From: Pseudomonas sp.
GTDB taxonomy: Bacteria > Pseudomonadota > Gammaproteobacteria > Pseudomonadales > Pseudomonadaceae
Direction: 5' to 3'
DNA length: 64,000 bases
NCBI RefSeq assembly: GCF_030698175.1
Contig: NZ_JAUYNT010000002.1
Coordinates: forward strand, 1 to 64,000
The notes beneath the pieces were generated by a model. That model made no database searches and was not told the origin of the DNA. It was given only the letters and a program-made list of their open reading frames with translations. Positions 1-63,880 of the stretch are shown in pieces. Position 1 is the first letter of the stretch. Every line of letters begins with the position of its first letter. The position numbers were made by a program, and so were the translations under genes.

Positions 1-141
1 TGCGCCAAGCGGTAGCTCTTTGTAGGAGGGGCTTTAGCCGCGACCCGCATCCCACAGGGCGCGCTGGCACACTGCAAAGCATCGCGGCTAAAGCCCCTCC
101 CACGAGTTTTGCGGCGCTCAACAGTTAATGGGCACATAGCC
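1..141. repeat. 3' part of a MITE-like element with a REP-type hairpin core (copy A)
   Basis: The segment 21-43 (GTAGGAGGGGCTTTAGCCGC) is repeated in inverted orientation at 82-102, a REP-like hairpin of the kind common in Pseudomonas. The right edge, about 119-141, reads CAACAGTTAATGGGCACATA then GCC and matches the terminal repeat of the elements ending at 19999, 52757 and 61973. The left terminus lies before the window. The element abuts and apparently interrupts the MCP gene remnant that follows. Confidence 0.7.
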
Positions 142-13992: not shown

Positions 13993-14030
13993 TCGTAGGA
14001 TGTGGTTGAGCGTAGCGATACCCATCTCTG
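13993..14030. repeat. Short GTAGGATG...CGATACCCATC hairpin repeat
   Basis: The segment CGTAGGATGTGGTTGAGCGT followed by AGCGATACCCATC resembles, in part and in inverted halves, the core of the element at 19873-19999 (GTAGGATGGGTATCGCTTCG). It lies between the convergent hda and DUF2069 genes and has no terminal repeats of the larger element. Confidence 0.55.
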
Positions 14031-19101: not shown

Positions 19102-19593
19102 ATGGCAATGCAACACCACTGGTATGGGTTCAGGGGGCGGGTGCTCATGGTGATCCTTGTTAGCCTGGTGCTGGGCGGCTGTAGTGAAGACTACGGGGTT
19201 GATCAGTATGGACGAAAGGTAACGGCTGAGCAGCTAGAAGGCCAGTGGTTGCTGATTAATTACTGGGCGCAATGGTGCGGCCCTTGCCGTGGCGAAATCG
19301 TCGAGCTGAATAAGCTGGCGCAGCAATCCAGTGATCAGTCGGTGACGGTGCTGGGGGTTAATTTTGACCAGTTGCAGGGCGCCGATTTAACTAAAGCCAG
19401 CATGGAGCTGGGGATTAATTACCGGGTCTTGGCGCAAGACCCAGCTGCGCGTTGGCAGTTGCCGCGCAGTGAAGTGCTGCCGGTGACTTATATTATTGAT
19501 GCCCGCGGCAAGCTGCGTGAGCGTTTGCTCGGTGAGCAAACCGCCGCCGGTTTAACCGCGCGCTTGGCGCAGTTACAAAAAGGAGCGCAGTAA
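19102..19593 (+). CDS. Thioredoxin-like (TlpA/ResA-type) lipoprotein
   Basis: The 163-residue protein has an N-terminal hydrophobic stretch ending in a lipobox (SLVLGGC), so it is probably an anchored periplasmic lipoprotein. The redox motif WCGPC lies in LLINYWAQWCGPCRGEIVE, and VLPVTYIIDARGKL contains the cis-proline. It may reduce periplasmic disulfides or serve cytochrome maturation. Start is uncertain: 19102, 19108 or 19147 all keep the lipobox. Its stop overlaps acyP (TAATG). Confidence 0.88.
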   Translation: MAMQHHWYGFRGRVLMVILVSLVLGGCSEDYGVDQYGRKVTAEQLEGQWLLINYWAQWCGPCRGEIVELNKLAQQSSDQSVTVLGVNFDQLQGADLTKASMELGINYRVLAQDPAARWQLPRSEVLPVTYIIDARGKLRERLLGEQTAAGLTARLAQLQKGAQ

Positions 19594-19868
19594 TGCCACG
19601 TATTTGTTTGCATGCCATCGTCAGCGGCCGGGTGCAGGGCGTCGGCTTTCGCCAGCACACCGATGAGCAGGCGCAGCGCTTAGAGCTTGATGGTTGGGTG
19701 CGTAACCTGGCTGATGGTCGAGTTGAGGTGCTGATTGAAGGCGAGGAGGCGGCTGTGCGTGAGCTGGCGGACTGGCTAGCGCAAGGTCCGCAGGTGGCGC
19801 AGGTGACTGGCGTGGCATTGAGCGAGCAGCCGCTGCAAGGCGTGGTCGGTTTTATTGTACGGAGTTGA
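19593..19868 (+). CDS. acyP: Acylphosphatase
   Basis: This 91-residue enzyme hydrolyses acyl phosphates. The catalytic arginine (R20 in GRVQGVGFR) and asparagine (N38 in GWVRNLADG) are both in place. It is coupled to the thioredoxin gene by a TAATG overlap. The stop codon TGA is part of the 7-bp sequence TGATTAA that is repeated on the far side of the repeat element immediately downstream. Confidence 0.95.
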   Translation: MPRICLHAIVSGRVQGVGFRQHTDEQAQRLELDGWVRNLADGRVEVLIEGEEAAVRELADWLAQGPQVAQVTGVALSEQPLQGVVGFIVRS

Positions 19869-19872
19869 TTAA

Positions 19873-19999
19873 GACTATGTGCCCGTTAACTGTTGCAGCG
19901 TGGTGGCCCTTTGTAGGATGGGTATCGCTTCGCTCCACCACATCCTACGGCCGTCTTTTCAGCGGTTAAGGGGTATCAACACATAACGGGTACATAGCC
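19873..19999. repeat. MITE-like element with 7-bp flanking duplication (copy B)
   Basis: The 127-base element begins GACTATGTGCCCGTTAACTG (continuing TTG) and ends CAACACATAACGGGTACATA then GCC; these are inverted repeats matching at about 19 of 23 bases. TGATTAA occurs directly at both edges (19866-19872 and 20000-20006), as expected for a target-site duplication. The core holds the hairpin GTAGGATGGGTATCGCTTCG...CATCCTAC. No ORF is inside, so movement would need a transposase in trans. Confidence 0.75.
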
Positions 20000-20039
20000 T
20001 GATTAAGCCAGCTGCCGCGCGTAGGCGGCAGCTGAGCAC

Positions 20040-52454: not shown

Positions 52455-52757
52455 GGGGATGTCCCCGTTATGTGTTGCAAAGCGCAAGCCCCTAGCCTCT
52501 GGTTTCTGACCCATATGACGTGGGGGGAAATAACGATTGTGGCCCAGTCGAATTGCAGGTGTCACGCCTGCTTCGCGGTGCCCTTTGTTACCAAAAACCG
52601 CTCCTACACAAGCCCGGCACCTGCAATAATTTCATCGGCTGTCTCCCTGTAGGAGCGGATTTATCCGCGATTGGTCAGTGCTGACAGCACAAGTATCAAG
52701 GCTGATCCCCCCAAGAGAAAGGTTCGGCCCCTCGCAACGCATAACTGGTACATAGCC
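52455..52757. repeat. MITE-like element with REP core (copy C)
   Basis: The left end GGGGATGTCCCCGTTATGTG then TTGCA and right end CGCAACGCATAACTGGTACA then TAGCC are the family terminal repeats, 303 bases apart. Inside are inverted REP sequences AACCGCTCCTACA and GTAGGAGCGGATTTATCCGC. No clear target duplication is seen. It fills the gap between the CopD-like gene and the acyl-CoA dehydrogenase. Confidence 0.7.
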
Positions 52758-61707: not shown

Positions 61708-61973
61708 GGCTCTGTCCCCATTACCTGTTGCAGGCAAAACGTAGGGTGGGTTAGTGGCGCGGGACAGGGATTGAAAATCAACTGCGCAATGTGTGCGCCA
61801 CGTAACCCACCATGGCGCTCGACCGGCAAACCGCATGGTGGGTTACGCGGCGCCTTGCTTGCGCGGTGATGCAAACAACCACCGCCCGCGCCGCTAACCC
61901 ACCCTACGAATTACCGCGCACCAGGCATCGCCTAACCGACCCACACACCTCAACACTTAACGGGTACATAGCC
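61708..61973. repeat. MITE-like element with GTAGGGTGGGTTA core (copy D)
   Basis: The left end GGCTCTGTCCCCATTACCTG then TTGCA and right end CAACACTTAACGGGTACATA then GCC are family terminal repeats. The 266-base element holds several GTAGGGTGGGTTA/TAACCCACC inverted motifs, and 61801-61945 is about 95% identical to 63701-63845. It lies between nosY and nosL. Short in-frame ORFs inside are repeat artefacts. Confidence 0.75.
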
Positions 61974-63578: not shown

Positions 63579-63880
63579 TGCAATCCATAGCTGGGACACC
63601 GGCAAAAAAAGGCTCTATCCAGTTACGTGTTGCACACAGCTTTTGTAGGGTGGGTTAGGCGCGAACCATGGCTTGCCAACAACGCAAAACCCGACCGCGC
63701 CGTAACCCACCATGGCGCTCGACCGGCAAACCGCATGGTGGGTTACGCGGCGCCCGGCTTGCGCGGCGATGCAAGCAACCACCGCCCGCGCCGCTAACCC
63801 ACCCTACGAATTACCGCGCACTAGGCATCGACTAACCGACCCGCACGCTGCAACTCATGGCTGGGAAACAGGCAAAAAAA
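63579..63880. repeat. Degenerate MITE-like copy E between 32-bp direct repeats
   Basis: The left family end GGCTCTATCCAGTTACGTGT then TGCA is at 63611. The right end is degenerate. The core 63701-63845 nearly equals 61801-61945. Outside it, TGCAATCCATAGCTGGGACA (63579-63610) and TGCAACTCATGGCTGGGAAA (63849-63880), each ending GGCAAAAAAA, are direct repeats at 27 of 32 bases. The noncoding gap 63484-63925 is otherwise empty. Confidence 0.65.

Follow-up and report, generated by a model that had tools for sequence, protein, structure and literature searches.

The window, a 64,000-nucleotide stretch of a Pseudomonas genome, contains four copies (A through D) of a repeat family with constant ends and variable interiors (Table 1). 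These copies had been described in an earlier note made from the letters alone, and our analysis bears out their positions, their ends, and the differences among their interiors. Copy B adjoins a reading frame that the note called acyP, a name used here as a label only. A fifth, decayed copy lies beyond copy D, and a single GTAGGATGTGGTTGAGC REP without a surrounding element is present at window positions 13995-14026. Below, an element bounded by two facing ends is called a shell, the sequence that it carries is its core, and its arms are the short stretches that separate the ends from the first GTAG.

Table 1. Repeat copies and associated features in the window
Feature	Position	Strand	Remarks
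Copy A	1-141		162-bp shell minus its first 21 bp, truncated by contig edge
Copy A, right TIR	119-141		
Copy A, TSD ATTAATAA	142-149		
Copy A, REPs of class GTRGGAGGGGCTTTAGCCGCGA	22-43 and 82-103	+ and -	
Reading frame labelled acyP	19593-19868	+	TGA stop inside the copy B duplication
Copy B with flanking duplication	19866-20007		8-bp reading TGATTAAG; 7-bp reading TGATTAA
Copy B, probable 8-bp duplication TGATTAAG	19866-19873 and 20000-20007		
Copy B, left TIR	19873-19895	+	One mismatch to family pattern
Copy B, right TIR	19977-19999	-	Exact
Copy B, core	19913-19949		Single GTAGGATGGG...CCACATCCTACG hairpin
Copy C	52455-52757		TIRs at 52455-52477 and 52735-52757
Copy C, REP GTAGGAGCGGATTTATCCGCGA	52649-52670	+	
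Copy D	61708-61973		TIRs at 61708-61730 and 61951-61973
Copy D, core GTAGGGTGGGTTA...TAACCCACCCTAC	61741-61907		
Copy D, TSD ATGTTTAA/ATTTTTAA			7/8 match
Fifth, decayed copy	63611-63852		Right TIR lost
Fifth copy, left TIR	63611-63632		1-bp deletion
Fifth copy, core GTAGGGTGGGTTA	63645-63807		Complete

The sequence at 1-141 is a true copy, as the earlier note had it, but only part of the element is present there: because the window begins at base 1 of contig C26, copy A is truncated by the contig edge. The remaining 21 bases are found at the start of contig C1, and the element joined from C26 and C1 measures 162 bp and is flanked by ATTAATAA on both sides. The edges of the two contigs overlap by 118 bases (L013 and L030); these shared bases of copy A, together with the matching flanks, indicate that C26 and C1 adjoin.

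The ends conform to a 23-bp family pattern, GGCTMTGTVCCCRTTANSTGTTG. One end variant gave four matches at up to three mismatches in the window and none in 100 shuffles, and the family pattern recovers seven ends of copies A through D in the window at up to two mismatches. Across the 4.55-Mb genome, 170 ends were detected at up to three mismatches, compared with 0 for a reversed-pattern control. The GTTAAC within the ends may resemble integron attC sites. The sequence searched, 342 kb including the window, surrounds listed ends and contig starts; it yielded 172 ends at up to four mismatches, and a partner was accepted at up to six mismatches within 420 bp. This rule gives 58 paired elements of 72-374 bp, in which 110 of the 172 ends take part. 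The other 62 lack a partner under these limits, some of them because contigs break inside the IS.

The flanks of the shells carry a target site duplication of 8 bp. Identity is 8/8 in 16 of the 58 shells and 7/8 in another nine, for which mismatched flanks give chance rates of 0.42% and 1.57%, respectively; in 14 shells, identity is 4/8 or less. Copy C belongs to a site with no recognizable duplication, its flanking 8-mers agreeing at 3/8. Among the 34 elements with at least 6/8 identity, the target is an 8-bp A+T block flanked by G/C on either side. A 7-bp duplication, as proposed in the earlier note, was rejected as the family rule because lengths other than 8 give few exact matches (only 0-3 each for lengths 5-7 and 9-11). 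At eight places, two ends face outward with 7-9 bp between them, and a second element seems to have inserted there into the duplication made by a first. Such back-to-back tandem elements are located at C12:17170, C16:131205, C19:17856, C19:34463, C21:3223, C32:34618, C32:141174, and C40:127849 of the same genome (G000), and others are present at L300 and L334.

The TGATTAA that had been noticed on both sides of copy B does match at 7/7 in the frame used by the earlier note, but the flanks agree at only 3/8 when measured from the end pattern. We infer that the duplication is the 8-bp TGATTAAG and that the left end of copy B has lost one base. As the earlier note stated of TGATTAA, this duplication includes the TGA stop codon that ends the acyP-labelled frame.

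Shells are not confined to this genome. At a threshold of one mismatch, 33 of the 348 genomes sampled from the genus have ends (own genome included; control, 0), or about a tenth, with 1 to 98 ends per positive genome. We read 40 intervals from other genomes, 19 in G054 and 21 in 20 further genomes, a number that is a slight overcount given that the nearest-partner rule divided a single 305-bp element in L292. The duplication is 8/8 in 21 and 7/8 in six of these 40 intervals. Facing pairs of ends, which the earlier note proposed to look for elsewhere, are thus found both in the same genome and across the genus. The split element (L292, positions 198-502) has outer flanks that match at 8/8 and more end-like sequences inside, as if one shell lay within another.

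Sites without the element were sought by searching 46 genomes with the flanks of 13 sites joined together, considering the best six candidates per genome, and 11 site-genome pairs were read. In G343, the closest relative among the matches listed, the element is absent from the sites corresponding to C6:22061 and C12:155652, and the duplicated 8-mer (ATGAAAAT and CAGCAAAA, respectively) is present once, so that an empty orthologous site with a single copy of the duplication was found for two elements. The C37:171939 site is also without the element in G343, with 28 other bases in its place, and in G106 and G131 it has diverged; at C18:46508, the element is missing and the site diverged in G297, G235, and G200. 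The copy B site is empty as well in G001, G013, G014, G131, G207, and G343, but neither TGATTAAG nor TGATTAA was found there in any of these six relatives because the short spacer has diverged. Therefore, the single copy that the earlier note expected at empty sites was observed at two other elements but not at copy B.

For several ends the distance to a contig edge is 117-141 bp, as could be the case if the family were a product of chance similarity or of genome assembly. We give this explanation practically no credence in view of the 170 ends against 0 control matches, the duplications, the empty sites, and the presence of ends in 33 of 348 genomes.

The earlier note could match the ends to no named family and suggested looking for a full-length IS with the same ends. 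Such an element exists in this genome. An intact IS of 1034 bp at C40:47338-48371 (L025) has both 23-bp ends and, between these facing ends, one ORF for a 321-aa transposase. The protein matches the NCBIfam model NF033547 (IS1595) with E=1.3e-55, above the cut-off, as well as NF050000, the IS1/IS1595 zinc-binding domain, and Pfam PF12762 (DDE_Tnp_IS1595). The ends of the repeats are therefore those of an IS1595-family IS. Flanks of the IS also carry 8-bp duplications: 10 of 11 IS ends sort by flank into five pairs, each with a perfect 8-bp duplication, and the unpaired one is that in L008. Many contigs break just within the IS. The two ends of the assembled complete copy (L025, positions 1501-2534) each pair by flank with an end on another contig, and these are two different broken IS ends; the join in L025 either arose as IS copies recombined or was introduced by the assembly. 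We fetched 80 relatives of the IS and examined 12 named ones for ends. Both ends are present within two mismatches in nine of them, and for the other three (L124, L160, and L171), which match over only part of the transposase, a single side showed an end. Among named relatives of the transposase, those with the highest identity come from Pseudomonas, at 88% (over part of the protein) and 85%.

On these findings, we class the shells as IS1595-type MITEs. At 72-374 bp, shells are small, and they have no transposase because they are too short for the 321-aa ORF; an autonomous IS1595-family element has matching ends, and the duplications of the shells are 8 bp long and A+T-rich. We consider it highly probable that the repeats are MITEs with IS1595-family ends, predicted to be mobilized in trans, that carry REP or REPIN hairpins. 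The IS1595-family transposase would be the enzyme that moves them. Internal deletion of an IS is one common origin of MITEs and is not part of their definition. A simple internal deletion of the IS in this genome was rejected as the source of the shells, since the arms lack a match to the IS interior (one of 60 arms scores better than all its shuffles).

The cargo of the shells is the second component of the system. REP-type palindromes are present in 56 of 58 cores of this genome and nameable ones in 39 of 40 cores of other genomes; two and one cores, respectively, are without any nameable REP type. The suggestion that one shell carries different palindromes is thus supported here and across the genus. 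By type, we counted 18 cores with GTAGGGTGGGTTA, 12 with GTAGGATG, seven with GTRGGAGGGGCTTTA, and 21 with GTAGGAGCGGATTTATCC, along with two further types seen in single cases, and some cores carry two kinds; these tallies are descriptive because the type patterns were written after the cores had been read. Both tags (GTRGG and CCYAC) occur in 53 of 58 cores, compared with 8.0 in shuffles, and 46 of 58 cores fold as DNA with z<-3 relative to shuffles. Most cores have the REPIN form, an inverted GTAG/CTAC REP pair that folds as a hairpin; REP pairs of class IV are arranged tail-to-tail, and copy B has one hairpin. The copy B core corresponds at 36 of 37 bases to the two-REP core type of C12:155652 with a deletion between two GATGGGT words. 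To judge from this alignment, such deletions would be a further source of core variety.

Core types also vary by genome. G054 has GTGGGAGCGG REPs and GTCATTCCCGCG-type palindromes, and cores of the other genomes include GTAGGGTGGGCTTTAGCCC, GTAGGGTGCGC, GTAGGAGCCAGCTTGCTGG, and more. Shells with CCCTCTCCC-type palindromes are present at L318 and L314 (G279 and G301), and the L314 shell has a GTAG REP in addition. At C7:4248-4406 (L003, G000), the core joins a GTAGGAGGGGCTTTAGCC REP to a GTAGGGTGGGCTTCAGCC hairpin, making it a two-class hybrid.

The same REPs are also found outside shells. Genome totals are 103 matches for the class II pattern, 121 for class I exact words, and 159 for the class III/IV pattern. 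Among 100 listed class II matches, 11 are in paired shells, four are within 400 bp of an unpaired end, and the remaining 85 have neither a paired shell around them nor a listed end close by. We read 40 class II loci picked without a listed end nearby, which, because they were chosen away from ends, establish the existence of shell-free copies and not their frequency. The best end match at these loci has five mismatches in one case (L262, possibly a decayed shell) and 6-10 in all others. A further 20 loci have REPs from classes I, III, and IV. Several of these are cleanly bounded by GTAG and CTAC and lack an end, and L273, L276, L282, and L285 retain decayed ends with two to five mismatches. 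Some class I copies outside shells have the same GTAG/CTAC limits as shell cores. The idea that the 23-bp ends form part of the REP repeat was rejected, given that most of the listed class II REPs occur without ends.

The genome encodes two Y1 transposases (PF01797). One gene is flanked by class IV REPs and the other by class II REPs, and we call both RAYT-like because of these flanks; REPs of classes I, III, and V were not seen beside the two genes found. Thus, the genome's own RAYT-linked REPs account for at least two of the core classes. The REP-type cores and these flanked genes would also fit a RAYT that moves the whole unit as one large REPIN or BIME, with the 23-bp ends as the outer part of the REP. 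However, a REPIN is limited by GTAG and CTAC and has no duplication, whereas the whole unit here has 23-bp TIRs and 8-bp duplications. A single-strand IS200/IS605-like enzyme is not known to leave such duplications and empty sites. The ends, moreover, belong to a DDE-type IS, and the 85 class II matches mentioned above lie outside shells and away from ends. Thus, movement of the entire unit by a RAYT is very improbable, and it is likely that one kind of mobile DNA, the IS1595-type MITE, spreads another.

With the MITE interpretation as a basis, we considered how shells obtain their cores. A founding shell would arise once a REPIN has come to lie between two ends, and the shell so founded would then multiply. 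At C30:248890-249021 (L019, G000), a class II REPIN has a shell end on one side only, 17 bp away, and this is possibly a founding intermediate or a decayed shell. Each core class may represent an independent founding event of this kind, with cores never exchanged in an existing shell. The one-ended REPIN, the unrelatedness of the arms to the IS interior, and the class-specific appearance of long arms all agree with this account, to which we assign slightly below an even chance, since some arms are common to shells of different classes. Both arms of C7:43830, with a class I core, align with those of C12:17180, with a class II core, at z values of 6.1 and 4.6 relative to shuffles. The value of 6.1 is the highest scored in 1,528 cross-class comparisons, which covered 69 arms of up to 70 nt from classes other than IV, and the pair is a single case picked from these comparisons. 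Shells of classes II and III also have in common a 17-nt arm pattern ending in GCAGCTTTT. This likeness is weak evidence for exchange because TTTT before GTAGG also precedes some REPs outside shells, and the argument for exchange therefore leans on the pair C7:43830 and C12:17180.

Arms common to different classes, and core limits at GTAG/CTAC like those of shell-free units, are likewise what one would see if REP-free shells came first and RAYTs inserted REPINs into them as favored landing places. This order of events is rather unlikely in our estimation: cores without a nameable REP are rare (2/58 and 1/40), and no shell running from arm to arm without a core was found among the cores read. 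In our main reading, the REPIN of a multiplying shell could be replaced by one of another class, through a RAYT or through recombination at short GTAGG stems. Tentatively, and with somewhat less than even confidence, we propose a two-tier system in which the DDE-type shell acts as a general carrier for host REP families, lands in terminator T-tracts while leaving the terminators whole, and has its cargo exchanged in place. If this is true, two unrelated transposition systems jointly spread and recombine REP families.

The landing sites of shells also point to a preference. We folded the 28 nt that precede T-rich duplications of elements with at least a 6/8 match, excluding flanks that contain ends, and compared them with 61 comparable A+T blocks in the same genome away from ends, which served as control for the other genomes as well. 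Folds of -8 kcal/mol or below were found for 10 of 24 flanks in this genome and 20 of 24 in other genomes, as opposed to 23% of the 61 control sites and 24% of shuffles. Relative to this own-genome control, enrichment is moderate for the genome of the window (p=0.002) and stronger in the other genomes (p=6e-7). Many target flanks resemble bidirectional terminators. Many insertions are located in a T-tract directly past a terminator-like hairpin. Because the T-tract is the duplicated part, the stem and T-tract would stay in place after insertion, and terminator function would probably be kept. Insertion in the T-tract past a terminator-like hairpin would in this way leave an intact terminator and make such sites cheap to occupy. 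A preference of this kind would allow a transposon to reach high copy number at little damage.

REPs are among the commonest bacterial repeats, and RAYTs are usually held responsible for spreading them. The presence of the same REPs in units with the signature of a double-strand transposon suggests a second route by which REP families spread, and the shells offer a testable cause for different hairpins having one surround. IS1595-type MITEs with REPINs inside them are nested mobile DNA, for which we infer movement by the IS transposase, founding by capture, and later exchange of the core. In a literature search that covered few subscription papers, we found no description of REP-carrying IS1595-type MITEs and none of such terminator targeting.

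Members of the IS1595 family usually generate 8-bp duplications and have a DDE domain, with a zinc finger in most groups, according to the portion of PMC8101967 consulted, which cites Siguier 2009; similarly, the ISApl4 element of this family makes 8-bp repeats, preferably A/T-rich, in the part of PMC12561309 available to us. Shells resemble these elements in their 8-bp duplications and inverted ends, and the IS of this genome has the transposase domains. They differ from the IS1595 elements as described in those portions in that the window repeats are gene-free and contain REP hairpins, and in that many targets look like terminator T-tracts. The cores, for their part, resemble the REPINs and RAYTs in the sections consulted of PMC3116915: many consist of GTAG...CTAC REPs paired in inverted order, the Y1 genes are flanked by two of the classes, and most listed class II copies are outside shells. 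Unlike the REPINs of those sections, some REPINs here are inside a DDE-type MITE with 8-bp duplications, and class IV pairs are arranged tail-to-tail. Pseudomonas MITEs and TIMEs are likewise short, have inverted ends, and depend on a partner transposase, and their abstract-level descriptions (PMC3189936 and PMC4133298) mention no REP cargo, which sets the shells apart.

A precedent exists in palindromes of A. variabilis, T. roseum, and H. neapolitanus that, in the excerpt consulted of PMC3733652, contain GTAG and CGTC REP dimers; there, as in the shells, REP dimers are regularly within a longer inverted repeat. Section 7 of that paper names no IS or duplication and describes a single REP family for each palindrome, whereas in the shells many REP classes share one set of ends, for which the genome also has an autonomous partner. 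Finally, an association of IS and REP is common to the shells and to the IS elements that target REPs, as presented in the part of PMC1525189 consulted. In that case, the IS inserts into the REP, whereas in the shells the REP sits between the ends of an IS.
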